Source: Methylocystis sp.
GTDB lineage: Bacteria > Pseudomonadota > Alphaproteobacteria > Rhizobiales > Beijerinckiaceae
Direction: 5' to 3'
DNA length: 48,042 nt
NCBI GenBank assembly: GCA_022843405.1
Contig: JALHNQ010000024.1
Location: 1-48,042 of the forward strand
Of the stretch, positions 5,057 through 46,967 are shown one piece after another. A model generated the notes under the pieces. The model was not told the DNA's origin and did no database searches. It saw nothing but the letters and a program-made list of their open reading frames with translations. How positions within the stretch are numbered: the first letter of the stretch is position 1; each line of letters opens with the position of its first letter. The translations under genes and the position numbers were made by a program.

Positions 5057-6241
5057 CTATGGGCTGTTCTGCAGCGTGGCGGCGCGCGCCGCCTGCGCGG
5101 AGAGGCGGGTCAGTCGCTCCTCGCTCATTCCGGCTCGCGTCAGAAAGGCGCGCGCCTTATCGGCGGCGGCGTCGTCGCCCGCCACGACGGCGGACTCATA
5201 CAATATGCGTGCGTCCGCCGGCGTGCGCTGCACGCGCCAGTTCTGCTCGGCGAGACGCAGCGCTTTGGTCGGATCGCGCAGCAGATAAAGCGTGAAACGC
5301 GCCTCGTCGCCAAGGTGGAACGCCTCGCCGCGACGCCGGGAGGCGGCAAAGCGCTCCTCGATGAGCGATACATGCTCAGCGAGACCTTCCGAGCCGAGCC
5401 GCCGCTCGGCGAGCGCGAGGCGCAGCAGCGCAGCGTCGATGCGGACCTGTCCGGCGAGCAGCGCCGCCGCGTCCGCGAAACGCTCTTCGTCAAGCAGGAA
5501 ATCGGCGTAAGCGGCGAGGAGATAGGCTGTCGGCTTGGCGGCCTCCAGCGCCGCCTTGAACGAATGTTCGGCGCGCTGCGCTTCGCCCCGCCTTGCAGCG
5601 ATCTCAGCGAGAATGGTCAACGCCCATCTTCGTCTCTCGGGCGTCGCTCCCGGCCGCGCTTCAAGCGTTTGCTCGAGCGCCTCCGCCGCTTCGCGCGATC
5701 CTCCCATGAGGCTCGCGGCGTCGGATACGCAGGCGACCGCCAGCAGCGGCTCGCTCGATGCGGCAAGCGGCGCGCAGCTCGCGCGCGCCTCATCCAAACG
5801 GCCGAGGATTTTGCTGATCGCCGCGCGCATAAGCCATGCTTGAAGATTGGCCGGATCGGATTTTATCACGGCGTCGACATCGGCGAGCGCGTCATAAAAG
5901 TCATGCCGATTCTGTGCGATCATCGCGCGCAGCAGAAGCGCCTTTACCGGAGGAACCGACAATTTCCACAAGGGCGCAAGAACGCCGGCCGCATATCCGA
6001 AATAGCGCGGATCAGAATCTTCGCTGCCGAGCGTCACAAATTTTTGCGCGAGTTCGATTGAGGCTGAGAGATCGCCCGACCGCGCTCGCAGATCGCGCAA
6101 TTCCGCCGCTATCGGCGCGGCGGCGCGAGGCAATCGCTCTAGAAACTGATCGTCGTCACTGGGAACGAAAGGCGCGGCGAATGCGTTCATGCAGGCGACA
6201 ACCGCTATGCACATACATGACAAAGGAATTAAATGTCGCAT
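5057..6241 (-). CDS. Exported TPR-repeat protein
   Basis: A 394-residue protein with an N-terminal export signal (about residues 1-23). VVAC ending at Cys17 fits a lipobox, so it may be an outer-membrane or periplasmic lipoprotein; cleavage after AFA is the alternative. The rest is mostly helical with TPR-like pairs, for example around residues 105-155 (ALADVDAVIKSDPANLQAW), then further Ala/Leu-rich helical repeats to the C-terminus. TPR arrays bind proteins; no catalytic motif is seen. It is divergent from the DUF4331-like gene with 179 bp between the two chosen starts. I recall, without being able to check it, that TPR genes occur near DUF4331 and HupE/UreJ genes in other phyla, so it is treated as part of this block. 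The specific function is unknown. Confidence 0.8.
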   Translation of the reverse strand: MRHLIPLSCMCIAVVACMNAFAAPFVPSDDDQFLERLPRAAAPIAAELRDLRARSGDLSASIELAQKFVTLGSEDSDPRYFGYAAGVLAPLWKLSVPPVKALLLRAMIAQNRHDFYDALADVDAVIKSDPANLQAWLMRAAISKILGRLDEARASCAPLAASSEPLLAVACVSDAASLMGGSREAAEALEQTLEARPGATPERRRWALTILAEIAARRGEAQRAEHSFKAALEAAKPTAYLLAAYADFLLDEERFADAAALLAGQVRIDAALLRLALAERRLGSEGLAEHVSLIEERFAASRRRGEAFHLGDEARFTLYLLRDPTKALRLAEQNWRVQRTPADARILYESAVVAGDDAAADKARAFLTRAGMSEERLTRLSAQAARAATLQNSP

Positions 6242-6420
6242 CAGCGCTCGCCCATTTCACGCTCGCAACAGGGCGTCGAGATCGAGACGCGGAAATTTTT
6301 TTTGAGCCTTGTAAAAAATATGAACCGATCGTATCGTGCGCGCAACTGAAAGTTACTGTTCGATAACTTCCCGCGGAGCAACATTTCTTAGCGGTGAAGC
6401 CTTATTTGAGTGAGGGTTTG

Positions 6421-7575
6421 ATGGCTCGATCGATGATGGCCAATATGGCCAAGAAATTATTCGTCGCGCTCCTCCTGTTCTTTGCCTTGCTGATCCCCGG
6501 AACAGGGCGCGCCTCGGACCACGCCGATCCCATGTGGCTCGCGGAGGACGAGCAGGAAGCCAACATCACTGGCCTCTTCTTCTATCCCGACGGCGACCGA
6601 TGGATCGCAATCCTCGACGTGCGCCGCTCGCTGATCGGGGCGCCGCCATACAATCTCGAGCCCTTCGAATTTGACATCCATGTGGATTTTCACACGAAGC
6701 TCCGCTTCGACAATGCCGAAGACGTCGCGCGCTATGGCGCCACGATCGAAGCGCCCGAAGGCATAGCGCCTGACGCCACCATCCGGGTCCGTCTCAACAA
6801 TGACGCGACGGTGAAGGAAAAATCCTTCAAAGGACTCGGCGATACGCAGGACATCCAGGCCTATTCCGGCATTCGTGACGATCCGTTTATCTTTCCCCGA
6901 TTCTTCAAGGTGAACGTCATCACCATGGCGTTCAGCATTCCGAAATCCGCTTTTCCCGAACATGCGGAGAGTTGGCTTTTGTGGGCCACAAGCAAGCGCG
7001 TCAGCAACGGCGAGCAGATCGACCATGTCGGACGATCGAACCGCACACAGCTCGGCCGCTTCGAAATTTTAAATACCATTCCGCCCTCGCAGCACGTGGC
7101 GGAGATTCGCGAAAAGGGCGAGTCTCGGGCCAAGGTTCAGGACTTTCTCAAGCAATGGTTGCCGCCGCTCGCCAATTTGAATCAGCTGAGCGGCTTTTTT
7201 ATTCGCCATTATGACTTTGTGCCCGACGTGATGGTGTTCACCAAGACGCGGCCGGCCGGATTTCCGAATGGCCGTCGTCTCGAAGATGACGTAGCGCTGC
7301 TCACCTGCGCGCAGGGCGATTGTCCGCTGCAGGAAAACGCTTTCATCGACACGACGCAATGGCCGCGCGCAACGGTCAACGACAAGCCTCTGTCGAGCAA
7401 GTTTCCCTATCTAGCGGAGCCCTGGCCCTTCATGCCCCAGCCTGCGGGCGCGCCCGGGCCTTACGTCTATCGCTTTTTTGCGCGGCCGGCCGTGCAGATC
7501 GGGATTGTCGCGCTTGTCTTGCTTCTCATTCTTCTCAGCGTGATTCGCTGGTTCAAACGACGGGCCGCTTTCTAG
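6421..7575 (+). CDS. DUF4331-like periplasmic protein with C-terminal membrane anchor
   Basis: A 384-residue exported protein. A signal peptide spans about residues 1-32 (AKKLFVALLLFFALL core), and the mature part begins with the DUF4331-like signature SDHADP followed by ANITGLFFYPDGDRW. A hydrophobic segment (about 355-375) followed by RWFKRR at the C-terminus would anchor it with the bulk in the periplasm. Two cysteines (LLTCAQGDCPL) could form a disulfide. The ATG at 6421 is preferred over an upstream GTG at 6394 because GAGGG lies just before it. DUF4331 has no established biochemical role. The gene is 134 bp upstream of the di-haem cytochrome, in the same direction. Family assignment is from recognition of the N-terminal motif and is moderately sure. 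Confidence 0.72.
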   Translation: MARSMMANMAKKLFVALLLFFALLIPGTGRASDHADPMWLAEDEQEANITGLFFYPDGDRWIAILDVRRSLIGAPPYNLEPFEFDIHVDFHTKLRFDNAEDVARYGATIEAPEGIAPDATIRVRLNNDATVKEKSFKGLGDTQDIQAYSGIRDDPFIFPRFFKVNVITMAFSIPKSAFPEHAESWLLWATSKRVSNGEQIDHVGRSNRTQLGRFEILNTIPPSQHVAEIREKGESRAKVQDFLKQWLPPLANLNQLSGFFIRHYDFVPDVMVFTKTRPAGFPNGRRLEDDVALLTCAQGDCPLQENAFIDTTQWPRATVNDKPLSSKFPYLAEPWPFMPQPAGAPGPYVYRFFARPAVQIGIVALVLLLILLSVIRWFKRRAAF

Positions 7576-7709
7576 GCGTGAAGCGGTTTTCGCAGCGCCA
7601 CGACTCGCGTGGCGCAACTTTTTCTTCGATTGGGTCGTCGATCGACGCGGAGATTTCGGCATAGCGGACAGGCGACGAATATTAGGCATTCGACATTGGG
7701 GAGGGAACG

Positions 7710-10322
7710 ATGCTCGAAAGAATCCTGCGGAGCTTGGTGGTCGCAGCGGCGTTGAGTGGCGCCTATGGATCGATGGGCGGCGCGGCGAACGCCGGCCAGA
7801 ATTGCGGCTCCGGCGCCGGCAACGTCAAGGACGAAGCCATGTGCGTCGGACGCACGCCGGAATCTATGCCCGGCGCGGATGACGATTATTACGCCGACAT
7901 GGATTACGGCGCGACCAAACATCCGGAAGACCTGGCCAAGGCCTTGCAACCTTATGCGCCTGGCGTCACGCCCGAGGATGCGCGCAAGGCGGCGGTGATT
8001 GGCCGCAATAACTGGGTGGTGTGGACCGCCGGCAACGACCGGCTGTGGGACGTCTTGAACAAGAGATCCTTCGGCGGGCTCGACTTCCTGAAGACCCTAT
8101 CGAGCCATCCGAGTCTTAAGAAATTCAGCCGCGACAATCGCTGGAGCTATTTGGGTCTCGTCAACGAGCCCTGCTTCAAGAAGGCGGCCGGCCCTCGCGC
8201 GGATCGCTTCGGCCTCTGGCTCGACATGCGCGATCCGAACTGCTCGCCCGATCCTTTCGAGAACGAAGCGAAATATCCTGGCGTCAAGATCGGAGCGCGC
8301 GGACGCAGCGACAAGTTTCCGGTGGGTTCCTACTACGGCTATGCGACCGGCATCGTCGGTTTGAGATTATTCCCAAATCCTGACTTCGACGAAGCGGCCG
8401 AAAGGAAATGGGATCCGGAGCGCTTTTACACCGATCCCGACTATTACAACGATAAGGACCTGGTGCGCCCCTATCGCGTTGGCATGTCTTGCGGCTTTTG
8501 CCATGTCGGACCCAATCCGACCAATCCGCCGGCCGACCCGGAAAATCCGAAATGGGAGAATTTGAACTCCAATCCGGGCGCTCAATATTTCTGGTGGGAC
8601 CGCATTTTCACCTATGCGGCCGATCCGAAGGATTTCTCCTGGCAATTTTTCCACGTTTCGCGGCCGGGCGCGCTCGACACATCGCTGGTCTCAACCGACT
8701 ACATCATCAATCCGCGAACCATGAACGCGATCTACCAGCTCGGGCCGCGCGTGGGACTCGCCTTGAAATTCGGCCAGGAAAAGCTCGCTGGCGGCGAGAA
8801 GCAGAACAAGCAGTTCAACGAGTATGTTCCCGCCAATTCGCCGCTCACGCAGTTCTTCAAGGCGCCCGATACGGTGTTCACGCCACGCGTTCTCAAGGAC
8901 GGCGCGGATTCGGTCGGCGCGCTGGGCTCCTTCAACCGGGTCTTCGTCAACATCGGCCTGTTCAGCGAGGAATGGCTCGAGCACTTTAACGCCGTGATCG
9001 GCGGCAAACCGATCACCGCCATTCCGATCGCGACGGGACGCGCCCATTCCACCTATTGGCAGGCGAATGAAGCGCAGACTCCCAACACCGCGCTGTTTTT
9101 CGTCGCAACCGCCAAGCCCGACTATCTGAAGAACGCGCCGGGCAGCGACAAATACCTTACGGCCGATTCGGCGACGCTCGAACGCGGCAAGGAAGTGTTC
9201 GGCGAACGCTGCCTGCGCTGCCATTCGAGCAAGCTGCCGGAGAAGACCTTCAGCTACTTCCCGAACAATGGCTGCGTCGGCAAGGATTATCTGACCTGCT
9301 GGAACAATTATTGGTCATTCACCAAGACCGACGGGTTCAAGCAGGAGGCGAAGAAGATCGCCAAGGCAAGCGACTTCCTCACCGATAATTTCCTGTCGAC
9401 CGATCTCCGCGTGCCGGTGACTCTGCTGGAAACCAACGCCTGCAGTCCGCTGGCCACCAATGCGATCCGCGACAACATCTGGAACGATTTCTCTTCGAAC
9501 TCGTACAAGGAGTTGCCGTCGGTCGGAAAGATTACGGTTCACGATCCCTATACGGGCGCGCCGCGCCCCTACGATATGCCGGCGGGCGGTCGCGGCTATA
9601 CGCGGCCGGCGTCGCTGGTCAGCCTGTGGTCGACGGCGCCCTTCCTGCTCAACAACAGCGTCGGCGCATTCTACGAGAGCCCATCGGTCGAAAGCCGGTT
9701 GAAGTCCTTCGACAGTTCGATCGAACAGATGCTGTGGCCGGAGAAACGCGCCGGCTCATATGGGCAATATAGCGAGAAATATGGCCAGAAGGACATCGAA
9801 TATGTCACGGCCTCAGGCAAGAAGCTGCATGGCGTCGTCGATGTGACGACGGAGCGGAGCTATCTGCGCGTGCCGAAGGGCTATGTCCCCGATCTGCTGC
9901 AGGCGGGCTTCGACGCCGGCGAGGACGTGAAATGGCTGGTCGACGCGCTGCGTCTCAGCAATTTCGTCGACAAGGACGGCATCGCCATCGGCCCAATCCC
10001 GAAAGGCACGCCGGTGCAGCTGATCGGCAATATTGATCTCGATAAGCGAGAAGATCCGCTCGAAAATCTGTTGCACAAAGCGAGAGTGCTGAAGCTGCTC
10101 GCCAAGCTAAAACTTACGTTGAAGTTGCTGCCGCCGGATCCGAGCGACGAACAGGCGCGCGCGGCGTTCGCCCGTTCATATGACGATCTGCTCGAACTCA
10201 ATAAATGCCCGGACTTCGTCGTCAATCGTGGTCATTACTTCGGCACCGATTATTTCGCCGAGGAGCCGGGGCTGAGCGACGCCGACAAAAAGGCTCTGAT
10301 CGCCTTCTTAAAAACCATGTGA
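7710..10322 (+). CDS. Large periplasmic di-haem cytochrome c
   Basis: An 870-residue exported protein with a signal peptide ending near ANAG and two c-type haem sites: CGFCH (Cys261, Cys264, His265) and CLRCH (Cys501, Cys504, His505). The first is followed by a Pro-rich stretch (VGPNPTNPPADPENP), the second lies in a more ordinary cytochrome c domain. The roughly 240 residues between the two sites and about 365 after the second are too large for a simple electron shuttle, suggesting a catalytic or scaffold role. A strong Shine-Dalgarno (GGGAGGG) precedes the ATG. The next gene, 63 bp downstream, is a GMC flavoprotein, for which this cytochrome could accept electrons. Substrate and partners are not known. 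Haem attachment is certain; the exact family name is not. Confidence 0.85.
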   Translation: MLERILRSLVVAAALSGAYGSMGGAANAGQNCGSGAGNVKDEAMCVGRTPESMPGADDDYYADMDYGATKHPEDLAKALQPYAPGVTPEDARKAAVIGRNNWVVWTAGNDRLWDVLNKRSFGGLDFLKTLSSHPSLKKFSRDNRWSYLGLVNEPCFKKAAGPRADRFGLWLDMRDPNCSPDPFENEAKYPGVKIGARGRSDKFPVGSYYGYATGIVGLRLFPNPDFDEAAERKWDPERFYTDPDYYNDKDLVRPYRVGMSCGFCHVGPNPTNPPADPENPKWENLNSNPGAQYFWWDRIFTYAADPKDFSWQFFHVSRPGALDTSLVSTDYIINPRTMNAIYQLGPRVGLALKFGQEKLAGGEKQNKQFNEYVPANSPLTQFFKAPDTVFTPRVLKDGADSVGALGSFNRVFVNIGLFSEEWLEHFNAVIGGKPITAIPIATGRAHSTYWQANEAQTPNTALFFVATAKPDYLKNAPGSDKYLTADSATLERGKEVFGERCLRCHSSKLPEKTFSYFPNNGCVGKDYLTCWNNYWSFTKTDGFKQEAKKIAKASDFLTDNFLSTDLRVPVTLLETNACSPLATNAIRDNIWNDFSSNSYKELPSVGKITVHDPYTGAPRPYDMPAGGRGYTRPASLVSLWSTAPFLLNNSVGAFYESPSVESRLKSFDSSIEQMLWPEKRAGSYGQYSEKYGQKDIEYVTASGKKLHGVVDVTTERSYLRVPKGYVPDLLQAGFDAGEDVKWLVDALRLSNFVDKDGIAIGPIPKGTPVQLIGNIDLDKREDPLENLLHKARVLKLLAKLKLTLKLLPPDPSDEQARAAFARSYDDLLELNKCPDFVVNRGHYFGTDYFAEEPGLSDADKKALIAFLKTM

Positions 10323-10324
10323 CG

Positions 10325-10368
10325 CGTCGGAGGCCCGGGCCGCCAAGGCGCGTCCGGGCCAACCGACG
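10325..10368 (+). promoter_or_regulatory. Hairpin between cytochrome and GMC genes
   Basis: The 63-bp gap holds a strong potential hairpin: CGTCGG (10325-10330) and GGCCCGG (10332-10338) pair with CCGGGCC (10354-10360) and CCGACG (10363-10368), leaving a 15-base loop and a small bulge. No T-run follows, so it is not a classical terminator; it may protect or process the mRNA and set the ratio of cytochrome to oxidoreductase. Confidence 0.6.
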
Positions 10369-10385
10369 AAGGAGGGGGAACGACC

Positions 10386-12284
10386 ATGAGCCTCAGCGAC
10401 AAGGCGAGCTTCGAATATGTGGTGGTCGGCTCGGGCGCGGGCGGCGGCACGGTGGCGGCGCGTCTCGCCGAGGCCGGCTGCAAAGTGCTGGTGCTCGAGG
10501 CAGGCGGCGATCCGCGGACGCTTTCGGGCGGCGACGCGGCCTATCCTGACGAAGAGCGTCTACCAGACGATTATCGCGTTCCGGTATTTCACGCTTGCTC
10601 GACCGAGAATCGGGCGATGCAGTGGGATTTTTTCGTCCGTCATTATGGAGACCAGGAGCTCCAGAAAAAAGACCAGAAATATGTGGAACGCGATCATAAT
10701 GGCAAGCGCGTCGACGGTGTGCTCTATCCGCGCGCCGGCTGTCTCGGCGGCTGCACCGCGCATAATGCGATGATCATGGTCTATCCGCACAATGCGGACT
10801 GGGACCATATCGCCGATCTCACCGGCGACGCCTCCTGGCGCGCCGACAATATGCGGACCTATTTCGAAAAGCTCGAGAACTGCAATCATCGCTTCTTCTT
10901 CCGCCTGCTCGGCATGCTCGGGATCAATCCCACGCGCCATGGCTGGAAGGGCTGGCTGCATACCGAGAAGAACGTCCCCGCCGCCGCGCTCGGCGATTTC
11001 GACCTCGTCAAAGCATTGAAGGTGTCGATCCTGGCGGCGATCGGCCGGTCGCCCTCGCTCCTGCAGCGGACACTCTGGTTTCTCCTCGGCAAGGGCGATC
11101 CCAATGATTGGCGCCTCGTCCGCGAGAACGCCTTTGGTCTGCATTACCCGCCGCTCAATACGCGCAAGCACGAGCGCATGGGCACGCGCGAGCGCCTAGT
11201 CGAGACACAGCAGAAATATCCCGACAATCTGACCATCGAGCTCGACGCGCTGGCGACGCGCGTATTGTTCGACGACAAAAATCGCGCGATCGGCGTCGAA
11301 TATCGCAAGGGCGCGAAGCTCTATCAGGCGCATTACGATCCGAGCGGAGAGCCGGGCGAGACGCGCACCGTCCATGCCACGCGCGAAGTGATCCTCGCCG
11401 GCGGCGCCTTCAACACGCCGCAACTGCTGATGCTCTCCGGCGTCGGCCCCAAGGAGGAGCTGGCGCCGCTCGGCATCTCGACGCGCATCGATCTGCCGGG
11501 CGTCGGTAAGAATCTGCAGGACCGCTATGAGGTCGGCGTCGTCAATCGCGTCACGGACGATTGGGGCATATTGAAAGGCGCAAAGTATAAGAACACTGAC
11601 ACCCAATACGCCGATTGGCTGCGCACCAAGAACGACTACACCGGCTCCGTCTATGGCACGAATGGCGCCGTGCTCGCCGTCATCAAGCGCTCGGCGAGCG
11701 AGCGGCCGCTGCCCGATCTCTTTTGCTTCGGCGTGCTCGCCGATTTCCGCGGCTATTATCCCGGTTATTCGCAGCGGGTCGTCGAGCGGCTCAACTGTCT
11801 CACTTGGGCCGTGCTCAAAGCGCACACCAACAATCGCGCCGGCTATGTGAAGCTCAAGTCCGCCGATCCGCTCGAGCGTCCGGAGATCAATTTCCGCTAT
11901 TTCGCCGAAGGCACGCCCGATCGCGACGAGGACCTCGATTCGGTGGTCGACGGCGTGAAATTCGTGCGCGCGCTCACGCGTCCGCTCATCGAACTCGGCG
12001 TCGTCGAAGAAGAAGAATCGCCTGGCCGAGACATGACGAGCGACGAACAGATTCGCGATTTCGTGCGCTATCAGTCCTGGGGCCATCACGCCTCCTGCAC
12101 CTGCGCGATCGGTCCTGACGGCGCCAGCGACGCGGTTCTCGATTCGAAATTCCAGGTGCGCGGCGCGAAAGGTCTGCGCGTCGTTGACGCTTCGGTGTTC
12201 CCACGCATTCCCGGATTTTTTATCGTGAGCGCGGTCTATATGATCGGCGAAAAGGCGGCGGATGCGATCCTCGCCGACCGCTAG
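10386..12284 (+). CDS. GMC-family FAD-dependent oxidoreductase
   Basis: A 632-residue flavoprotein of the glucose-methanol-choline family. The N-terminus carries the FAD-binding motif VVGSGAGGG (Gly15, Gly17, Gly20), then VLVLEAGGD. The GMC signature region is seen as YPRAGCLGGCTAHNAM and in the second motif GGAFNTPQLLMLSGVGP. The C-terminal catalytic region reads SWGHHASCTC (His567-His568), where HxxGT is usual, and then FPRIPGFFIVSAVY, which lacks the second catalytic His/Asn of typical members. No signal peptide is visible although the preceding cytochrome is periplasmic. A strong AAGGAGG precedes the start. The 3' end overlaps the next gene by 23 bp. An alcohol, sugar or aldehyde substrate is plausible but not identifiable. 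Confidence 0.87.
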   Translation: MSLSDKASFEYVVVGSGAGGGTVAARLAEAGCKVLVLEAGGDPRTLSGGDAAYPDEERLPDDYRVPVFHACSTENRAMQWDFFVRHYGDQELQKKDQKYVERDHNGKRVDGVLYPRAGCLGGCTAHNAMIMVYPHNADWDHIADLTGDASWRADNMRTYFEKLENCNHRFFFRLLGMLGINPTRHGWKGWLHTEKNVPAAALGDFDLVKALKVSILAAIGRSPSLLQRTLWFLLGKGDPNDWRLVRENAFGLHYPPLNTRKHERMGTRERLVETQQKYPDNLTIELDALATRVLFDDKNRAIGVEYRKGAKLYQAHYDPSGEPGETRTVHATREVILAGGAFNTPQLLMLSGVGPKEELAPLGISTRIDLPGVGKNLQDRYEVGVVNRVTDDWGILKGAKYKNTDTQYADWLRTKNDYTGSVYGTNGAVLAVIKRSASERPLPDLFCFGVLADFRGYYPGYSQRVVERLNCLTWAVLKAHTNNRAGYVKLKSADPLERPEINFRYFAEGTPDRDEDLDSVVDGVKFVRALTRPLIELGVVEEEESPGRDMTSDEQIRDFVRYQSWGHHASCTCAIGPDGASDAVLDSKFQVRGAKGLRVVDASVFPRIPGFFIVSAVYMIGEKAADAILADR

Positions 12285-12933
12285 GCGGGCGCAGGTTTCG
12301 CCGAGGCGGCGGAAGAGTTCTGCGCGCCGCGTCTCGGTGGTCTTGCTGCTGGCGCTTGCGTGCGGCGCGTTGGCGACCCCGGCGCATGCGCATACCGAAT
12401 TCGCGTCGCTCGGCGTGTTCTGGTCGGGCGCCGTCCATTTCCTGCTCAGTGTCGAACGCCCGGCGCTCGTCGTCGCTTTCGCGATCTGGGCGGGGACGCA
12501 GCAAGAGCGCGCCGACGCCGCTCTGGTCGGCGCGATCGGTCTCGGCGCCTTCGCCGCCGCGCTTGCGATGCGTCCGGACGGCGTCGAAAGCCATTCCGCT
12601 GTGACGATGGCGATCGTCGCTCTGGTCTTGCTCGGCGCCGCAGGCGTCGCTCGGCTTCAACTTGGCGTGCGGCCGGTTCTGATCGCGGCCCTATTCTGCG
12701 GCCTGATCGCGGGCGCGATCGGCGCCGCAGGCGAAACGATCGAGGATCGAGCGATCAACGCGAGCGCGTTGGCGCTGGTCGCTGCGGCCATCGCAGCCTA
12801 TGCGCTCATGGCGGCGTCCTTTGTCGCGCGATGGCGACACGCCCGCCTCGGTCTGACACTCTGCCTCGGCGCCGTCACGATTGCGGGGGCCGTTTGCGCT
12901 TCAGGATATTCGCGAATTTGTGGATACGGCTGA
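12262..12933 (+). CDS. HupE/UreJ-like membrane protein with altered metal motif
   Basis: A 223-residue membrane protein. A basic N-terminus and the hydrophobic stretch VSVVLLLALACGALA form a signal ending TPAHA, so the mature protein would begin at His44, as in the HupE/UreJ family. About five further hydrophobic segments follow. The family motif HX5DH is altered: His59 is kept but the Asp and His positions are Glu65 and Arg66 (HFLLSVER). It overlaps the GMC gene by 23 bp, with AAAGG upstream of the ATG, and itself overlaps the next HupE-like gene, so the genes are co-translated. It may be a degenerate subunit of a two-protein transporter. The family call is tentative; an unrelated small membrane protein is possible. 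Confidence 0.6.
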   Translation: MRSSPTARRAQVSPRRRKSSARRVSVVLLLALACGALATPAHAHTEFASLGVFWSGAVHFLLSVERPALVVAFAIWAGTQQERADAALVGAIGLGAFAAALAMRPDGVESHSAVTMAIVALVLLGAAGVARLQLGVRPVLIAALFCGLIAGAIGAAGETIEDRAINASALALVAAAIAAYALMAASFVARWRHARLGLTLCLGAVTIAGAVCASGYSRICGYG

Positions 12934-14036
12934 TCCTGTTCGCGCTTGCGGCGCAATTCGCCCTCGCTCTACAGATCGAACCCGCACGCGCGCATCTCTC
13001 CTCTGACAGCTATCTGCATGTTGAAATCGATGCAGACGGGCGCCCGAGCGGGCAGTGGGACATCTCGCTGCGCGATCTCGACGCCGCGATCGGACTCGCG
13101 CCCGACGACGGCGTCATCACCTGGGGCCGATTGAAAGCGCGGCGCGACGCGATCGAAGCCTATGCCTTTGATCGCCTGTCGATCGACGGCTGTGCGCTGC
13201 GCCCGGGCGACATGCGCGTCGACCGTCATGCCGGCGCCGCCTATGCGGTGCTGCGCTTTACGGCCGAATGTCAGCCTACGCGGGCGCCGCGGCGCCTCCA
13301 TTATCGGCTGCTCTTCGATTTGGATCCGACGCATCGCGGACTTCTCACGCTGGTGACGCCTTCCGGCGAACGGTCCGAAGTGCTCTCGCCCGATCGCGCC
13401 GACATTGGTCTCGATGGCGTTGATGATTCGACTTCCGGCTCCTTCCTTCACTTCGTCGGCTTCGGCGTCGGCCACATTCTTTTCGGCTATGATCATCTGC
13501 TGTTCGTCGCCGTGCTGATGATTTTCGCCGCTTTTCGCCGCAGCGAGGCCGGGTGGACGCCGATCGACGGCTTCGGCGCCAGCGCGCTTCAGACCTTGAC
13601 GATCCTGACGGCCTTTACCCTGGCGCATGGCGTCACATTGACGTTGTCGCTGTTTCATTTCATCGACGCGCCGTCGCGATTCGTCGAGCCTGCGGTCGCC
13701 GCGACGATCATGGGCGCGGCGATCGACAATCTACTGCCTCTTCTGTCAATTGCGCGTTGGACGATCGCATTCGGCTTTGGCCTGGTGCATGGCCTCGCCT
13801 TCGCGACGGCGCTCGGTCCGATGCGTCTGTCGACGTCCGGACTGCTGTATGCGCTTGCCGGCTTCAACGGTGGGGTCGAACTCGGCCAGATCGCTGTCGC
13901 CGCGTTGCTCATGCCGCTCGTGTTCACGGCAAGGCGCAAGAGTGTTTATGTCAGTTTTATTGCGCCGGCGCTGACAGTGCTCGCATTCCTTCTCGCGCTG
14001 CTTTGGTTCATTGACCGTATCGAAGCGCTACGATAA
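12894..14036 (+). CDS. HupE/UreJ-family membrane protein, exported N-terminal domain
   Basis: A 380-residue protein of the HupE/UreJ type 2 form. A signal-like segment (IRLILFALAAQFALAL) is followed by about 150 residues of periplasmic domain, then about six or seven membrane helices. The first helix bears the full HX5DH motif, GHILFGYDH (His194, Asp200, His201), and later helices carry LAHGVTLTLS and GLVHGLAFATALG. HupE proteins are nickel permeases for hydrogenase and urease in other bacteria; the substrate here is inferred only. No ATG fits; a TTG at 12894 with GGGGG upstream is the best start, and a TTG at 12918 is an alternative. It overlaps the preceding gene by 40 bp. The open frame reaching back to 12360 is antisense-free but is a shadow of the upstream gene. 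Confidence 0.82.
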   Translation: MRFRIFANLWIRLILFALAAQFALALQIEPARAHLSSDSYLHVEIDADGRPSGQWDISLRDLDAAIGLAPDDGVITWGRLKARRDAIEAYAFDRLSIDGCALRPGDMRVDRHAGAAYAVLRFTAECQPTRAPRRLHYRLLFDLDPTHRGLLTLVTPSGERSEVLSPDRADIGLDGVDDSTSGSFLHFVGFGVGHILFGYDHLLFVAVLMIFAAFRRSEAGWTPIDGFGASALQTLTILTAFTLAHGVTLTLSLFHFIDAPSRFVEPAVAATIMGAAIDNLLPLLSIARWTIAFGFGLVHGLAFATALGPMRLSTSGLLYALAGFNGGVELGQIAVAALLMPLVFTARRKSVYVSFIAPALTVLAFLLALLWFIDRIEALR

Positions 14037-14307
14037 GTTTCGCGTCATCTGCAAACGCACGCCGAGAAAAGCGTGAGACTCAATTTTCAGTGTGATTGAA
14101 CGGTAGACATTTGCATCGGCCATTTTCCGCGAATTGGCCGCGAAACTTCCTCCACGAACGAAACATCATGAGATCGACATGCAGTGCGACGAGTTCGGCC
14201 GCTTGTCATCGCACATGAGACAGGCGGGCGAATGTCCTTGACTGTTGCGCGCAACGCTCGGGCGTTGCGAATTCCGGCGCCCGCGCAAGAGAGAAGAGGA
14301 AACGAAG

Positions 14308-16452
14308 ATGCATCAACTTTCAGGCAAGGAATTTCAGATCGGCCTCACAATGTCCGGCGCGATTTCGGCTGGCGCCTATACCGCGGGCGTCGTCGACTTC
14401 CTGGTCGAAGCGCTGGAGTGTTGGGAAAAGGCGCGCGCCGCGGACCAGAACGGATCGGTTCCCAATCATCGCGTCGGAATCAAGGTGATCTCCGGTGCCT
14501 CGGCCGGCGCGATCACCGCGGCGATCGGCGCCATCGCGCTTGTCGACAAGACCGACGCCAAGACCTTTGAGTCGAACGGCTTCGTCTATCGTTACACGCT
14601 TCCAAAGCTCTATGAATCCTGGGTCGTCCGTCCGACGCTCGATTCGGGCGATGCGAACGTCCGGGATTTCCTCGCGCTCGACGATCTCGAGACGCGCCCG
14701 CCGGAGACGGCGGATTTCTCGCGGACCAGCAGCGTGCCTTTTCCGGGCGAGAACGATCCCATCGCGGTCGTCTCGCTGCTCAATTCGCGTCTGCTCGATG
14801 AAATTGCCGCGAACGCGATCGCCGTTGCGAAGGTCGAAGGACCGCGGCCCTATGTCTCGGCGAAGCTCCATATTTATCTCACGCTTTCCAATCTGCGCGG
14901 CGTGCCGTGGACCTTGCCTTTCAGCGGCGGCGACTATCACATGATCTCGCACGGCGACCGCGCCCATTATGTGCTGAGCGGCGTCGGCTCATGGGCGACG
15001 CACAGCGACTTCGCCGACAATGATCCGTCGCGCGACAATCTCGACATCGGGATGATCGCCAGCGCTGCGGCCAGAGACCAATGGAAGGATTATGCTGTCT
15101 GCGCTTTAGGCTCCTCCGCCTTTCCGGTGGGACTGGCGCCGCGCCTCATCGGCGCAAGGCCGAGGGAAGATTATTTCGGTCGCCGATATCCCAGCGCCGA
15201 CATCGCGGGAATCGACAATCTCAAGCCGCAATGGCCGCCGGCCGTCGAAGCTGAAAATCCCTTCTGGTTCACCTGCGCGGACGGCGGCATCATCGACAAT
15301 GATCCGTTCGAATATGCCCGCTTTACGCTGAAGGACAAGGCGACCGACGCCCGCCTACCCTGGGACCTCGATTCGGCGGACCGCGCGGTCATCATGATCT
15401 CGCCCTTTCCGGAACCGAAGCCGATCCGCAACGAAGGCGACCCTGCGATCGATATCGTCAGCCTGTTCTCTTCGCTGATGCCCTCGCTGATCGATCAGGC
15501 GCGCTTCAAGCCGAGCGAACTGGCGCTCGCCGTCGACCCCGATCACGGCAGCCGCTATCTGATCGGGCCGCGCCGCGTCATCGGGAACGAATTGCAGCGC
15601 TACGGCATCGCCAGCGGCCTGCTCGGCGGCTTCGGCGGCTTCGTCGCCCGCGCCTTCCGCGATCACGACTATCAGCTCGGCCGGCGCAATTGTCAGAAGT
15701 TTCTGATGACCTCATTCGCCGTCCCCGCCGATCATCCGATCGTGACGAACTGGCCGCCGCAGGTCGACAAGAAGCTGTTCGAAGCGATGCGGGAAAAGAC
15801 CGACGCTCCAGGCGCCGTCTCATACTGCCTCGCGCCGCTCTATGGCTCGGCAAAGGACACGATCGACCTCCCGCCTTGGCCGCAGATTACGCAAGCGGAC
15901 CTCGACCGGCTGATGACGCGCATCGGTTTACGCTTCGATCGCGTCGCGCCGATGGTGATCGGACAGAATGTCGGCGGCTTTCTCGGCCTGCTCCTCCAGC
16001 TGGTGCTGCTGCCCGGCATACGAAGTGCGCCGGGACTCATTCGCGACAAGGTTCTCAATTTCGCGAGGCTGACGATCCTCGGCGATCTCGTGCGCCGCAA
16101 CCAGATCACCGGCTGGGATCTGCCCGAGGGTCTTGGCGTCGATCCGGACGATGCGCGGCTGGTCATCGCCGAACTGCTCGTACCCAAATATGACGAGCGA
16201 AATGTCGAGGGCATTCGCCGGGCTGTCGCGCCGATGAGCGCCGCGCTAAACACCGCGAACATCACCCAGGTTCTCGAACGGCTGAAACAGACTCGCGGGC
16301 CGTTCCAGGTCTGGGAGGCTCCCTGGCGGGACAAGAACGGCGGCCGGCTCTTCACGCTGGAGAGCCGCAAGCCCAATCTCTTCGGCGGGAGATTGGGCGC
16401 TTCTCTCGGCCTCGGCTTCTTCAAGCCGACGGTTGATCCGCCGGGGATTTAA
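14308..16452 (+). CDS. Large patatin-like phospholipase
   Basis: A 714-residue patatin-family hydrolase. The nucleophile motif is GASAG (Ser65), the dyad Asp is in DGG (Asp325), and the N-terminal oxyanion loop reads SGAISAGAYTAG rather than the more usual GGGxRG. Patatins cleave acyl chains from phospholipids or other lipids with a Ser-Asp dyad. The domain occupies about residues 8-340; the rest is unassigned except for a hydrophobic stretch around 554-572 (GGFLGLLLQLVLLPG) that may touch the membrane. No signal peptide is seen. The ATG at 14308 has AGAGGAAACGA before it. It lies 271 bp after the HupE-like gene, far enough for its own promoter, so membership of that operon is uncertain. Confidence 0.88.
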   Translation: MHQLSGKEFQIGLTMSGAISAGAYTAGVVDFLVEALECWEKARAADQNGSVPNHRVGIKVISGASAGAITAAIGAIALVDKTDAKTFESNGFVYRYTLPKLYESWVVRPTLDSGDANVRDFLALDDLETRPPETADFSRTSSVPFPGENDPIAVVSLLNSRLLDEIAANAIAVAKVEGPRPYVSAKLHIYLTLSNLRGVPWTLPFSGGDYHMISHGDRAHYVLSGVGSWATHSDFADNDPSRDNLDIGMIASAAARDQWKDYAVCALGSSAFPVGLAPRLIGARPREDYFGRRYPSADIAGIDNLKPQWPPAVEAENPFWFTCADGGIIDNDPFEYARFTLKDKATDARLPWDLDSADRAVIMISPFPEPKPIRNEGDPAIDIVSLFSSLMPSLIDQARFKPSELALAVDPDHGSRYLIGPRRVIGNELQRYGIASGLLGGFGGFVARAFRDHDYQLGRRNCQKFLMTSFAVPADHPIVTNWPPQVDKKLFEAMREKTDAPGAVSYCLAPLYGSAKDTIDLPPWPQITQADLDRLMTRIGLRFDRVAPMVIGQNVGGFLGLLLQLVLLPGIRSAPGLIRDKVLNFARLTILGDLVRRNQITGWDLPEGLGVDPDDARLVIAELLVPKYDERNVEGIRRAVAPMSAALNTANITQVLERLKQTRGPFQVWEAPWRDKNGGRLFTLESRKPNLFGGRLGASLGLGFFKPTVDPPGI

Positions 16453-21123: not shown

Positions 21124-23553
21124 TCAGTCCGGCACGATCCGCAGCGGCGCTGAAAAGTCGGGCAGCGAGTCAAAACTGATCGGACCGCCGAAGGTGAAGC
21201 GCACCGCCGGCGGCTCGACCGGCTTGAAATGGCGATCCATGACGCCGACTCCGCAAACGGCCCCCGGAGCGACGCCGTTGGCGCATTGCTGATAGAGCGC
21301 GTCCGTCGGCAGCACCGAGCCATAGGCGTAAGTGATCTGGTCGGAACGCGAGTTGAAAATATTGAAGGCGTCGATCTGAAAGCGCCAGCCCCCATCCCAA
21401 CGATAGCCAAGCCGCGCATTGAAGGTGCCGGTGGCCGGCGAGGTGTAATAACCGTCGGGCGTCAACGGCCGCGTGCCGAAATAGCGGTATTTCATGCCGG
21501 CGAACCAGCCGGTGGCCTCGCCGATTTCGAGCCCGCCCATCGCCACGATCGCCGGGGCGTTGAAGAGATAATTGCCAGGCGCGTTGCCAAGAAAGGTTCC
21601 GTAAGGCAGCGCCTCGGGCGCGGTCAGTTCGACATAGCCGAGCCAGGCGTTCTGATCGACGCCGCGGAAGCGGGTGTTCACAAGCGCCACATTGCCGTCG
21701 AAGCTGACCCAGGAGACCGGGTGATAGTGGTTGGCGATTTCGATGCCGTAGCGGCGGCTCGGGCGGCCGAATTCCGTCGTGCCGGCGTCGCCGACATATT
21801 GGTTCTCGGAATCGAGATTGAGCCAGAACAGGCTGACGCTCGATTCCAGGCCGGGAACGAATTTCGTGCGCCAGCCGATTTCCGCGCCGCGCGACTTGAC
21901 GAGCAGCGGAATGCGCGCGGCGACCGAGAAACTGTCCAGGTCGAAACCTTCGATGCCGCCGATTTCCGCGCTCGAGAAGTTCTGCACCGTGCCGCGCGCG
22001 TCGGTCGAGTGGAACCCTTCGCCGAAATTCAGGAACATTTCGGTCGCATACCAGGGACCGAGAATGATCGACGCCTTGGGACTGAAAATCGCCGCGTCCT
22101 TCTGGCCATTGTTAAAGGGACCGGTCCACAGGAAGACCGGCGTCCCTGCGCTGTTGAAGACTTTCGGCGCGTCCCACAGCGTCTGTATCGAATTGGTGGC
22201 GGCTGAATAAAGGTCGACGCGCGCGCCCGCCACCGTGCGCAGCCACGGCGTCCAACTGACCGTCGTGTCGGTCCAGATGCCGATGCTGCCCTCGCCGACA
22301 TAATCGTTGCGGATCGCGTCGTAACTGGTGCGGCGGAAGCTTTCCTGCAGGCCTAGACGAATATCGTCATAGCGGCCCTGAAGCCCGAAGCGCGTTTGGA
22401 CCGGAAGACCGAATGAGCTCCAGGCGATGCCGTGCTGCGCGTTGACGCCGACGATCGTGCGCCGGTCGAATTGGCGGAACTGATCTCCGATGTCAGGATG
22501 CGCAAGGAAATAAGTGAAGTTGTTGTAGAGTTCCAGAGTCGAGCGGATCGCATAGGCTTCGACGCGCGAATAGTGATTGCCTTCTGTTTGGCTCCACCGT
22601 CCCGACAGCGAAAAACGGGTCGTGTCGCCGCCGTCGGTCGGGTCCATCGTGCCCCACAGCGACATCAGGCCGGAATTCACGGCGCGCATGGGAATCTGAT
22701 CGGTCGAATACCAGCGGTTGGCGTAAGCCATCGCGGTGAGCGACATGCCGTCGCTCTGGGTGCCGCGCGTCCAACGCAAAACGCCGTTGATCTTCTTTAA
22801 TTCGTCGCCGCGCTGCCACGGGCCGTTGTAGACGTTCATCTCCACGGCGCCATAGGCGTCGCCGCCATAGATATCCTTGTAAGGCTGGATGGCGAAGCCG
22901 CGGCCATAGCCGAAGCTGCCGCCGGTTCCGGAGAAATAGCCCTTGTCGATCTTATCGATGTATTGGATGTAAATGGAGCCAGCCGAAGAGAAATCGCCAT
23001 CTTCAGCTGCATAAGGCCCCTTGTGCACCAGAATTGACGACAACAGCTCGGGCATGAGGAAATTCGTGTCGGCGTAGCCCTGCCCGTGACCATGGGTGCG
23101 CATGTTGAGCGGCATGCCGTCAAGATAAAGCGCCAGATCAGTGCCGTGATCGAGATTGAAGCCGCGCAGGAAATATTGATTGGCCTTGCCGTCGCCTGAG
23201 TGCTGCGAGACGATCAGGCCCGGCACGATTTCAAGCGATTCGCTTGGACGCGCATAAGGATAGGCCGTCACTTCCGCGCCTGTGTAGAACTTGTCGCTGG
23301 AGGCGGTGAGCGGCGGCGGCTTTTGCGCCTCCGAAACTGTGGGATCCTGAATGACCGGCGCGGGCGCGGGACGAACCGGTCCGCGCGTCGCATGCCCGCT
23401 CGAACGCGAAGGCCGCGCAGCGGTGCTGGCCGCTGGGCGCTGACCGCCGACATTGATCGTTGGCAGCGCGGTGAATTGCGCCTGCGCCTCAGCGCCAATG
23501 AGCGAGATCGCGATGGCGACAGCGGATACGGAAGCGGCGTTTCTGCGGTTCAT
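21124..23553 (-). CDS. TonB-dependent outer-membrane receptor, probably nickel-regulated
   Basis: An 809-residue outer-membrane transporter. A signal peptide (ending AEAQAQ, about residue 26) is followed by a TonB-box-like LPTINVGG, a Pro/Ala/Arg-rich linker to about residue 75, the plug domain (PSESLEIVPGLIVSQHSG, then QYFLRGFNLDHGTDLALYLDG) and a long beta-barrel with many aromatic strand ends. The plug has HTHGHGQ-like histidines near residue 154 (RTHGHGQGYAD) that could contact metal. The upstream gene on the same strand is NikR, and a promoter-like pair plus a palindrome lie between them, so nickel or a nickel chelate is the best guess for cargo. Cargo is inference; the receptor class is certain. 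It ends in Asp instead of the common terminal Phe. Confidence 0.92.
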   Translation of the reverse strand: MNRRNAASVSAVAIAISLIGAEAQAQFTALPTINVGGQRPAASTAARPSRSSGHATRGPVRPAPAPVIQDPTVSEAQKPPPLTASSDKFYTGAEVTAYPYARPSESLEIVPGLIVSQHSGDGKANQYFLRGFNLDHGTDLALYLDGMPLNMRTHGHGQGYADTNFLMPELLSSILVHKGPYAAEDGDFSSAGSIYIQYIDKIDKGYFSGTGGSFGYGRGFAIQPYKDIYGGDAYGAVEMNVYNGPWQRGDELKKINGVLRWTRGTQSDGMSLTAMAYANRWYSTDQIPMRAVNSGLMSLWGTMDPTDGGDTTRFSLSGRWSQTEGNHYSRVEAYAIRSTLELYNNFTYFLAHPDIGDQFRQFDRRTIVGVNAQHGIAWSSFGLPVQTRFGLQGRYDDIRLGLQESFRRTSYDAIRNDYVGEGSIGIWTDTTVSWTPWLRTVAGARVDLYSAATNSIQTLWDAPKVFNSAGTPVFLWTGPFNNGQKDAAIFSPKASIILGPWYATEMFLNFGEGFHSTDARGTVQNFSSAEIGGIEGFDLDSFSVAARIPLLVKSRGAEIGWRTKFVPGLESSVSLFWLNLDSENQYVGDAGTTEFGRPSRRYGIEIANHYHPVSWVSFDGNVALVNTRFRGVDQNAWLGYVELTAPEALPYGTFLGNAPGNYLFNAPAIVAMGGLEIGEATGWFAGMKYRYFGTRPLTPDGYYTSPATGTFNARLGYRWDGGWRFQIDAFNIFNSRSDQITYAYGSVLPTDALYQQCANGVAPGAVCGVGVMDRHFKPVEPPAVRFTFGGPISFDSLPDFSAPLRIVPD

Positions 23554-23559
23554 TCGGCG

Positions 23560-23621
23560 TCACCAACATGCACATATTGTGATTTTTTTTAAAAATTGTC
23601 TTACGCAACGCGCCAGGTCAA
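23560..23621 (-). promoter_or_regulatory. Candidate promoter and operator of the TonB receptor gene
   Basis: On the minus strand a TTGACC box (23616-23621) is followed after 17 bases by CAATTT (23593-23598). Downstream, close to the expected RNA start, lies an imperfect palindrome (23560-23582) with arms TCACCAACATG and CATATTGTGA. It does not match the E. coli NikR half-site GTATGA. Given the nikR gene next door it is a candidate NikR site; that link is inference. Confidence 0.4.
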
Positions 23622-23675
23622 TCGGCTCGAAGCAATTTGCCGAAAGCGTTGCCGATTTGCCACAGAGGACGCGCT

Positions 23676-24143
23676 CTAGCTGGAATGATGCGCGTGATTT
23701 CGTTTGGGAAGATGATCGACATGGGGGGCTTCGCCCTGCGCGACATCCGCCGGCACGACGACGAGTTGCCCGTAGCGCACGCCGCGTTCGCCGATCAAAT
23801 GATCGGCGAAATGCTCTACGTCCGACTTCTGGCCCTTGAGCAGCGACACTTCGAGACAGGTGGCTTCGTCGATATGCACGTGGAGCGTCGCGATCGACAT
23901 ATCGGCATGAGAATGATGATCGTTCATCAATCTCTTCGACAGCTGTCGCGTCTCATGGTCATAGACATAGACGAGCGCCGCCATGCAGGAACGGGCGCTA
24001 TCGTCTGATTCGGGCGTCTTGAGCAGCCCGGCGCGAACGAGATCGCGCACCGCTTCGGAACGATTTCGATGGCCGCCCGCCTCCATATATTGGTCGAGCG
24101 CGCTCATCAGCTCTTCGTCGATCGTGATCGTTACGCGCTGCAT
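23676..24143 (-). CDS. nikR: Nickel-responsive transcriptional regulator NikR
   Basis: NikR is a ribbon-helix-helix repressor that binds DNA when loaded with Ni(II). The 155-residue protein has an N-terminal RHH domain (RVTITIDEELMSALDQYM, then RSEAVRDLVRAGL) and a C-terminal ACT-like domain. All four high-affinity nickel ligands are present: His77, His88, His90 and Cys96 (LHVHIDEATCLE), one residue offset from the E. coli numbering 76/87/89/95. The last 15 residues add five histidines (HVDHLPKRNHAHHSS), an extra tail that may bind metal. GGGAGC precedes the ATG. The TonB receptor gene follows 122 bp downstream on the same strand and is the likely target. Confidence 0.94.
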   Translation of the reverse strand: MQRVTITIDEELMSALDQYMEAGGHRNRSEAVRDLVRAGLLKTPESDDSARSCMAALVYVYDHETRQLSKRLMNDHHSHADMSIATLHVHIDEATCLEVSLLKGQKSDVEHFADHLIGERGVRYGQLVVVPADVAQGEAPHVDHLPKRNHAHHSS

Positions 24144-33968: not shown

Positions 33969-33997
33969 GCCTCTGCGCCAATCCGGAACTATCGCTT

Positions 33998-34050
33998 CCC
34001 CTCACCCGACCCGGCTTCGCCGGGCCACCCTCTCCCATAGGGAGAGGGTT
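33998..34050 (-). repeat. REP-like repeat copy B, between alpha-2-macroglobulin gene and pbpC
   Basis: On the minus strand this reads AACCCTCTCCCTATGGGAGA, then a variable middle, then GGGTGAGGGG, matching copy A. It fills most of the 89-bp gap and could form a hairpin in the transcript between the two genes, reducing or protecting pbpC mRNA. Confidence 0.8.
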
Positions 34051-34057
34051 GCGCGCG

Positions 34058-39868: not shown

Positions 39869-39885
39869 CGTAGCGCCTTTCGCAA

Positions 39886-45659: not shown

Positions 45660-46967
45660 TCAAGGCTTCGGCCGATCGGTCAATGTTTCTAGGAAAGCGA
45701 CGATCGCGTCGATCTCCTTATCCGACAGCCGCGGCTTTTCCCCGAGCTTGCGATCATAGGGGACTTCATCGACATTGACGTTGTCATGCGCGGCGGCGGG
45801 CAGGTCGTCGAATTTTTGCGGCTTGCCGCGCCGGTCCTTCGGATACCAATGGCCGGGATCGGTGTCCCGCGTCGCATAAAAGGCGACGACGTCGCGCAGT
45901 CTGTCGAAGACGCCATTGTGCAGATAGGGGCCGGTCACGGCGATGTTGCGCAGCGTCGGCACCTTGAAGGCGCCGCAGACGCTCTCGACCTTGAAATCCG
46001 CCGGCGCCGCTTCGGCGAGCCCCGGTCGCGCGCACAGGCCGAGATCGGGGGCGGCGTCCGGTTTCGCCGCGCTCGGGATTGCGCTGTTCTTGGGGCCGCC
46101 GAGCGCGTCATAGGTGAAATCAGTGAACAGCCAGTCCTGCGAATCGCGCGACTCTTCCTTGCCGGCGTGGCACGCGAGGCAATTGCCTTTCTTGGGATCC
46201 TTGAAGAGTTCGAAGCCCTTCTTCTCAATGGCGGTCAACTGCGCCGCGCCGCGCAGATAGTCGTCGAACTTCGAGGCGAAGGGATGGAAGCGCGTAGTTC
46301 CTTCGAAAGCGACGATTGCTTGCGCAAGCTTCTCGAAGGCGGCGTCCGGGTCGGCGAAAACCTTTTCGCCATAGACCTCGCGGACAAGGTCGGCGTAAGC
46401 GCCGTCGCGCACCGCTTCGACGACGTAGCGTTTTGACGGCGCGTTCATCTCGAGTGGATCGAAGATTGGGCCTTCAACTTGAGCGAGGAGATCGCGCGCG
46501 CGGCCGTCGAGAAACTGTCCGCCCGCCGGAATCTTTTCGATTTTGCCAGTCTCTTCGTCCTTGTCGTCGATGAAGCCGAAAGGCGGCGCGAAGGACGCGT
46601 ACATGATCGAGGGCGTGTTGCGCTTGCCCAATGAGGTCGGCAGCGAGCCGCGGGCCACGGCAGGCACGCTCGAACCGTTGTTGCCTTGAAAAGCCTTCGC
46701 GGCGTCATGGCAGGAGGCGCAGGAGACGCCCGCCGGGCTCGAAAGTTTCGCATCTTCGAAAACGCGCTTGCCGAGCAGTTCCAGCGGCGTGAGGCCGCGC
46801 TCGTCGGGCGCGACCGCGCCCGATGGCGCAGCCTCGGCGCAGAACGCCGCGCCGAGCAATGAGAAGACGGCGCAAAGCGCAGCTCGTTGCGCCTTGCTTA
46901 AGCAGGATCGGGTCACTTGAAGCAGTCCGCCGGAAGAGGAAAAACGCGTTCCTCGCGCTTTCGACAT
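45660..46967 (-). CDS. Di-haem cytochrome c peroxidase / MauG-family protein
   Basis: A 435-residue periplasmic di-haem protein. After a signal peptide (hydrophobic core ALCAVFSLLGAAF, cleavage near AEA), the first haem site is CASCH (Cys83, Cys86, His87) and the second CLACH (Cys263, Cys266, His267). Between them is the family signature FLDGRARDL then GPIFDPLEMN. Late motifs KVPTLRNIAVTGPYLHNG and the C-terminal VAFLETLTD are typical of bacterial CcpA/MauG proteins. Members either reduce hydrogen peroxide with electrons from a cytochrome or oxidise protein side chains; these cannot be told apart here. The ATG at 46967 has no clear ribosome site, and a GTG seventeen codons in (start of VTRSCLSK) gives a cleaner signal peptide. 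Confidence 0.92.
   Translation of the reverse strand: MSKARGTRFSSSGGLLQVTRSCLSKAQRAALCAVFSLLGAAFCAEAAPSGAVAPDERGLTPLELLGKRVFEDAKLSSPAGVSCASCHDAAKAFQGNNGSSVPAVARGSLPTSLGKRNTPSIMYASFAPPFGFIDDKDEETGKIEKIPAGGQFLDGRARDLLAQVEGPIFDPLEMNAPSKRYVVEAVRDGAYADLVREVYGEKVFADPDAAFEKLAQAIVAFEGTTRFHPFASKFDDYLRGAAQLTAIEKKGFELFKDPKKGNCLACHAGKEESRDSQDWLFTDFTYDALGGPKNSAIPSAAKPDAAPDLGLCARPGLAEAAPADFKVESVCGAFKVPTLRNIAVTGPYLHNGVFDRLRDVVAFYATRDTDPGHWYPKDRRGKPQKFDDLPAAAHDNVNVDEVPYDRKLGEKPRLSDKEIDAIVAFLETLTDRPKP

Follow-up and report, generated by a model that had tools for sequence, protein, structure and literature searches.

The composite locus

The DNA analysed here, hereafter the window, is a 48,042-nucleotide stretch of Methylocystis sp. 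(contig JALHNQ010000024.1, C24 of a 3.34-Mb draft genome that has a pmoA/amoA-type gene). Between murI and rpoD it carries a conserved unit (5057-16452) of seven genes, for a TPR protein, a DUF4331-like protein, a di-haem c-type cytochrome (CYT), a GMC flavoprotein (GMC), two HupE-like membrane proteins (HUP1 and HUP2) and a patatin-like protein. The original prediction, made from the letters alone, had described a row of six genes; all six are present and look real, and the patatin-like gene that it missed brings the set to seven. It knew of no named system with this composition, and no description of the set was found in the literature searched (open-licence papers only). The features of the unit are as follows.

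5057..6241, minus strand: TPR protein with a signal-peptide-like N-terminus, a triad TPR homologue (see below), divergent from the other genes
6394..7575, plus strand: DUF4331-like protein, likely start ATG 6421; PF14224, 34.2 bits; signal peptide and C-terminal helix
7595..7615, plus strand: terminator-like hairpin between the DUF4331-like gene and CYT
7710..10322, plus strand: CYT, an 870-aa exported di-haem c-type cytochrome with two CXXCH motifs
10386..12284, plus strand: GMC flavoprotein; PF05199, 98.4 bits; PF00732, 81.2 bits
12262..12933, plus strand: HUP1, a degenerate HupE-like membrane protein; PF04955, 14.6 bits; start ATG 12262 or GTG 12337
about 12918..14036, plus strand: HUP2, a HupE_UreJ_2 permease; PF13795, 123.8 bits; proposed start TTG 12918
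14308..16452, plus strand: patatin-like protein; PF01734, 35.8 bits; outside the interval first described

The ratio of nonsynonymous to synonymous substitution (dN/dS) against up to six relatives is 0.08-0.31 for the TPR, DUF4331-like, CYT, GMC, HUP2 and patatin genes (not computable for one DUF4331-like pair, that against Methylocapsa acidiphila, locus L079) and 0.30-0.56 for HUP1, the fastest-evolving gene of the unit. A single linear operon from the TPR to the HupE genes is rejected because the TPR gene is divergent; the exported TPR protein of the original prediction is there, though not co-directional with the rest. CYT and GMC are separated by 63 bp, and the DUF4331-like gene and CYT by 134 bp that include the hairpin; two terminator-like hairpins were found in the region where 1.7 are expected by chance, so their count is not above chance, and a promoter scan of 6150-7720 gave no sites. 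The overlapping reading frames described from GMC onward depend on unproven start codons: GMC and HUP1 overlap by 23 bp if HUP1 starts at ATG 12262, an overlap that GTG 12337 would abolish, and HUP1 and HUP2 by 16 bp if HUP2 starts at TTG 12918.

CYT and GMC form an accessory pair

A scan of species genomes for CYT gave 79 loci (80 of 83 confirmed matches kept) and also matched 21 plasmid records, four of which were read. The scanned loci, the plasmid loci read, L127 (which entered through a DUF4331 search) and the window make up the 85 CYT loci counted below; L145-L149 are excluded from that set, and L001-L004 were left out of part of the locus comparison. GMC is present in 77 of the 85, within 1.5 kb of CYT in 72 and, in 65 of those, downstream on the same strand. 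It also lies beside CYT in five of the six genomes read (G433, G414, G235, G186, G042 and G078), the exception being the remote G078. Distances in the CYT tree (79 rows) and the GMC tree (70 rows), from which short, merged or over-long open reading frames were left out, correlate across the 65 rows present in both (Mantel r 0.80, with none of 2000 permutations as high). CYT and GMC are one evolutionary unit.

The pair is accessory and patchy. CYT occurs in 3 of 149 genomes of the window's family, one of them its own; the five further genomes listed for the genus do not have it. Nine of 398 phylum genomes gave matches, five of which are counted as real (the window's own, G235, G186, G042 and the remote G078), the other four having E values of 4e-4 or weaker. 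Overall the pair is found in Pseudomonadota, Acidobacteriota and a few other phyla.

The tree of CYT, a quick tree to which long-branch warnings apply, has a fully supported clade of 17 rows that holds Methylocystis, Methylocapsa, G433, Methylobacter, other Methylococcales, a USCgamma metagenome-assembled genome (MAG) and G186. A pmoA-type gene was detected in 13 of the 16 genomes tested from this clade, plus the window's own, and outside it in 1 of 35 (G414), G561 having a match below the family cut-off; within the clade it was not found in two MAGs (L012 and L015) or in G186, which is listed as 100% complete. In the GMC tree the rows of the methanotroph clade do not form a single clade (2 changes). 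The CYT clade fits an exchange between alpha and gamma methanotrophs, one that is not exclusive to them given G186.

Many loci have another set of partners: C2 and/or C3 proteins occur in 43 of the 85, and none of the 41 C2 loci has DUF4331. C2 (about 145 aa) and C3 (about 430 aa; for example in L064, 14307-18758) adjoin CYT-GMC and reach the cut-off of no Pfam or NCBIfam family. A third protein often accompanies them, the one example tested being DyP-peroxidase-like below the curated cut-off (TIGR01413, 66.8 against 100.5 bits). The C57 protein of L007 and L071 matched no family. Near the CYT-GMC pair of Mesorhizobium plasmid pOM4 (L007, 423-3984, minus strand) are genes of the LodA/GoxA-type cysteine tryptophylquinone oxidase and PvdP-tyrosinase-like kinds, both below curated cut-offs.

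An altered GMC active site

The flavoprotein had been called unusual. Both GMC Pfam domains pass their cut-offs, the catalytic His (in a WGHHA motif) is kept in 70 of 71 alignment rows with a gap in the last, and the Arg of NLQDR is present in all 71. The second catalytic position of GMC oxidoreductases is His or Asn. Here it is Phe in 69 of 71 rows, where the aligned choline oxidase has Asn; the sole other GMC protein compared (L066, 3126-4745) also lacks Asn there, having Cys, and so does not serve as a canonical control.

The near-constant pairing with CYT is what would be expected if GMC were a dehydrogenase of an alcohol or sugar and CYT merely its electron acceptor, and the FAD-dependent gluconate and glucose dehydrogenase complexes likewise set a GMC flavoprotein beside a c-type cytochrome. 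Twin-arginine (Tat)-like signals, seen on the GMC proteins of L021 and L031 only, also favour such an arrangement. However, in those complexes the cytochrome has three haems and a small Tat subunit is present, whereas CYT differs in haem number and in size and no small subunit is seen here. Given, in addition, the Phe in the active site and the window GMC's lack of a visible signal, we regard a dehydrogenase with CYT as its electron acceptor as unlikely.

In L073, L074 and L083 (and L076 by length) GMC is fused through a transmembrane segment to a Cys-rich C-terminal domain. A catalase-like label, first given to this domain and to a 409-aa neighbour in L064, was dropped, as Pfam and PDB searches with the L073 and L064 proteins gave no support.

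CYT is a remote relative of known di-haem enzymes

CYT is the large di-haem cytochrome originally described. Exactly two CXXCH motifs are found in it, as in all 76 cluster proteins longer than 790 aa (the window's included), and its nearest relatives, in Methylocystis-type loci, are 93-94% identical. Its sequence suggests a remote relative of the RoxA/MauG superfamily. CYT aligns distantly with a RoxA-like alignment (hhalign probability 88.6, E 2.6e-6) and shares with the RoxA and RoxB rubber dioxygenases and RoxC-like di-haem cytochromes two c-type haem motifs, a tract around W-x-x-x-P-[FY]-x-x-N and a C-terminal G-H ... KTL motif. In Rhizobium plasmids two RoxA-like proteins neighbour it.

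Membership of the RoxA, MbnH or NF040606 families was rejected. At E 0.1 the window CYT matched no RoxA, RoxB, RoxC or PF21419 model and no MbnH or MauG model; the di-haem cytochrome c peroxidase model NF040606 gave 34.3 bits, under its cut-off of 150, and the RoxB model gave 17.1 bits on a Rhizobium CYT against a cut-off of 900. Unlike RoxA, CYT is paired with GMC, and its 870 aa exceed the 662 aa of solved RoxA by about 200 residues. In RoxA the distal Phe residues F301 and F317 surround the haem-bound O2 (PMC6797691; the facts used for comparison come from that paper and from PMC10837239), and CYT has no alignable region at these sites. The structure model of CYT is confident (pLDDT 83.5, pTM 0.87), yet Foldseek against the PDB gave nothing at E <= 0.001, RoxA included, and MauG only at E 4.5 and 5.8; therefore CYT may be a much-elaborated or new fold.

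Methanotrophs have copper-linked pairs, MbnH with MbnP and SACCP with MopE, in which a di-haem enzyme of the MauG superfamily adjoins a putative metal-binding exported protein (PMC3621798). By analogy CYT might modify the DUF4331-like protein by oxidising one of its residues, so creating its metal site. This was rejected as a core idea because DUF4331 or DUF4331-like proteins occur in just 13 of 85 CYT loci. The DUF4331 loci of the triad described below lack CYT, the MbnH and MauG models do not match CYT, and its constant partner is GMC rather than the DUF4331-like protein; we consider a maturase of this kind highly improbable.

A DUF4331-TPR-HupE triad

The DUF4331-like protein passes the PF14224 cut-off of 27 bits over only 57 C-terminal residues (287-343). 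It had been called tail-anchored, and the C-terminal helix is there; but the N-terminus resembles a signal peptide, so that a type I membrane protein is the better reading than a strictly tail-anchored one. Its predicted mature N-terminus is Ser-Asp-His, in an SDHADP motif invariant in 11 of 11 proteins. Foldseek with its structure model (mean pLDDT 66.8) found nothing at E <= 0.001, the weak matches being to the carbohydrate-binding module CBM9 7nwn (E 5.6e-3, probability 0.98) and the ethylbenzene dehydrogenase subunit 2ivf_C (E 5e-3, probability 0.60). No paper on DUF4331 was found in the open-licence literature searched.

PF14224 was found in 17 of 299 phylum genomes. Around the 12 full-length DUF4331 genes our own profiles detect HupE at 10, TPR at 9 and CYT-GMC nowhere; at L120 and L125 both HupE and TPR went undetected. 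DUF4331, TPR and HupE are therefore a recurrent triad. The window holds all three genes, with its TPR gene on the opposite strand, and G186 has one triad and, elsewhere, a separate CYT-GMC-DUF4331-like locus. Matches of the window TPR protein to Pfam and NCBIfam TPR models are weak and below cut-offs, and by blastp it matches five of the seven triad TPR proteins compared (E 3e-37 to 3e-16) and neither the L126 nor the L013 TPR protein. Inspection by eye of nine triad-type loci showed extracytoplasmic function (ECF) sigma and anti-sigma-like genes in seven, and no such pair was seen next to the unit in the window. Loci L117 and L120 have a TonB-receptor-like gene, that of L117 scoring 90.7 bits with TIGR01783, below the cut-off of 223.5.

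A second DUF4331 protein is encoded in the window's own genome (G000:C16, L092, 6686-7693, minus strand); it has 335 aa and no visible signal peptide, with no TPR or HupE match within the 16 kb fetched and a HupE about 25 kb away on the contig.

The two HupE/UreJ-type proteins proposed at the window differ in standing. HUP2 is a clear HupE_UreJ_2 protein (PF13795 cut-off 24.5 bits), 28-44% identical to seven triad HupEs, with a periplasmic N-terminal domain. HX5DH is the HupE/UreJ permease motif, present in HUP2 as HILFGYDH and in 8 of 11 cluster members. HUP1 falls below the PF04955 cut-off of 23 bits and has HFLLSVER in place of the motif, whereas its positional counterpart in Methylocapsa acidiphila is unmistakably a HupE_UreJ protein (180.6 bits) and carries HPLLGPDH. 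Given the lost metal motif, the fastest evolution in the unit and the intact Methylocapsa counterpart, HUP1 may be a decaying second HupE.

The patatin-like gene, whose lipase-like product scores over the PF01734 cut-off of 27.7 bits, is also present in L009, L018, L070, L079 and L145. Patatins have the Ser-Asp motifs GXSXG and DG[GA], and GASAG and DGG were seen by eye.

The two modules are joined in some lineages

The TPR, DUF4331-like, CYT, GMC, HupE and patatin genes stand together in three Methylocystis-type loci (L009, L018, L070), in Methylocapsa acidiphila (L079) and, within the same family, in a further genus (L145). L145 has the same arrangement with a divergent TPR, and in both L145 and L079 the surroundings differ from those of the window. 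CYT loci with DUF4331 or a DUF4331-like protein are enriched in the other genes: HupE is found in 10 of 13 loci with it against 1 of 72 without (Fisher 1e-9), TPR in 8 of 13 against 0 of 72, and patatin in 10 of 13 against 15 of 72, a count that takes in neither the Rhizobium patatins of L005, L006 and L008 nor the GMC fusion of L007, since the profiles were not designed to detect these. Without L127 the figures are 12 of 84 for DUF4331 or DUF4331-like proteins, 10 of 12 against 1 of 72 for HupE and 8 of 12 against 0 of 72 for TPR. The Fisher p-values ignore relatedness, four of the 13 loci being near-identical Methylocystis-type ones.

The combination extends to a gamma methanotroph (L013, whose DUF4331 is fuller), Nitrospirillum (L068 and L069), Mesorhizobium (L007) and a deltaproteobacterial MAG (L071), and outside the Methylocystis type the joined loci have several gene orders. 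The neighbourhood is accordingly recurrent and not a chance row, which supports the grouping first proposed. The single module proposed, however, is two joined modules, since most CYT loci (74 of 85, some incomplete) showed no HupE and the triad is found without CYT-GMC. That the locus is composite, with these two parts, is very probable.

Whether the parts work together is a separate question. M. aurea (L010) has the TPR, DUF4331-like, CYT and GMC genes and no HupE was seen; L029 and L127 showed no HupE either, L007, L068 and L069 showed no TPR, and seven of eight intact CYT-GMC loci of gamma methanotrophs lack the triad (L012, L014-L017, L019, L087), L013 being the exception. Two independent modules could have come to lie side by side by chance and travelled together as a single accessory island without working together: each occurs without the other, G186 carries a triad apart from its CYT-GMC-DUF4331-like locus, the unit is as patchy as the family survey indicates, and the missing TPR genes just noted qualify the recurrence. 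On the other hand, the combination recurs in differing gene orders across all the lineages named above, and a merely chance association appears unlikely.

Predicted function

The clue to a metal lies in predicted N-termini. All nine triad DUF4331 proteins inspected would begin with S-S-H and all 11 DUF4331-like proteins with S-D-H, and 10 of 10 triad HupEs would have a mature start at His, as would HUP2 (cleaved between PARA and HLSSD, read by eye and not by a signal-peptide program); the other cleavage sites come from a simple rule rather than from such a program. X-X-His amino termini bind Cu and Ni. By analogy, the predicted termini of DUF4331 and HupE suggest Cu/Ni binding. A DUF4198-type gene (annotated in L007) accompanies the DUF4331-like gene in L007, L029, L068 and L069. 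In another bacterium, an N-terminal-His periplasmic domain (anglerase) on a HupE/UreJ-2 protein was reported to bind Cu with a Kd of 73.6 nM and Ni with one of 220 nM, and the same work describes a DUF4198 that binds Ni (Franco Cairo et al. 2025, PMC12537917). HUP2 resembles that protein in its HupE_UreJ_2 domain, periplasmic part and predicted N-terminal His. DUF4331 does not appear in the main text of PMC12537917. Neither HUP2 nor the L007 DUF4198 protein matched a PDB chain by sequence, which lends no support to homology with the solved metal-binding domains.

A lipid theme is suggested by the patatin gene beside CYT-GMC, the GMC-patatin fusion in L007 and the RoxA-like neighbours in Rhizobium plasmids. 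Taken together, the locus may be an envelope oxidation module joined to a Cu/Ni capture-and-uptake triad, a reading that we favour tentatively and that falls somewhat short of probable. The periplasmic CYT and the GMC flavoprotein would successively oxidise a hydrophobic, probably lipid-derived substrate, CYT by haem-oxygen or peroxide chemistry of the RoxA/MauG type and GMC by hydride removal to FAD, and the patatin-like protein may release or handle the lipid. The DUF4331-like protein, with its predicted free Ser-Asp-His, and the periplasmic domain of HUP2, with its predicted free His, would take up Cu or Ni on the surface of the membrane; the TPR protein would be a scaffold and the HupE domain would carry the metal over the inner membrane. 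Some methanotrophs and a few other lineages would have united both parts in one locus.

Several observations weigh against this oxidation-and-capture reading. The window GMC has no visible signal peptide and so may not meet CYT, and CYT itself lies below the curated cut-offs applied to it, with no significant Foldseek match in the PDB. DUF4331 was not seen in 72 of the 85 CYT loci, and the L013 DUF4331 starts with ADHNDP rather than S-x-H. Among the 11 CYT-linked HupEs the cleavage rule found a clean site for 6 (the window and L009 were read by eye, no site was read in L007 or L068 and L081 is a fragment), HX5DH is absent from those of L007, L068 and L069, and HUP2 matched neither the solved anglerase domain (Ang-1, 9GCE) nor any other PDB chain at E 1. 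Both substrate and metal are inferred rather than demonstrated.

The metal role in the original prediction fares unevenly. A role for HupE is strengthened by the predicted N-terminal His; supply of its metal to the oxidation enzymes, the weakest part, is not supported, given the CYT loci without HupE and the triads without CYT-GMC, and neither CYT (haem) nor GMC (FAD) is known to require Cu or Ni. A further reading is an oxidative system of metal release and capture: at the envelope, CYT, GMC and patatin would degrade an organic or lipid ligand that holds metal, and the freed Cu or Ni would be caught by the DUF4331-like Ser-Asp-His, pass to the HUP2 His and be imported. This is rather improbable; if true, it would be a new metal-acquisition route common to some alpha and gamma methanotrophs, with DUF4331 a new family of amino-terminal metal-binding proteins. 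As methanotrophs depend on copper enzymes, an accessory oxidation/metal-capture locus is directly testable in them, and the triad offers a concrete hypothesis for the role of DUF4331. Two recurrent modules are defined here, neither found described in the literature searched.

Other genes of the window

Past rpoD and dnaG, some 7 kb downstream from the HupE genes, a NikR regulator (NF002815, 178.9 against 83 bits) adjoins a TonB-dependent receptor (21124-24143, minus strand), making a nickel-import pair; no such pair was seen alongside the unit in L079 or L145. At 31665-45141 (minus strand) consecutive genes encode a PBP1C-like protein (450.7 bits against a cut-off of 494.2), an alpha-2-macroglobulin of the bacterial type and a protein of 1751 aa that looks exported and has just a weak match, below cut-off. 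A further di-haem protein is encoded at 45660-46967 (minus strand); it scores 105.7 bits with the MbnH model, below the cut-off of 362.85, and belongs to the CCP_MauG family (PF03150, 110.2 bits).

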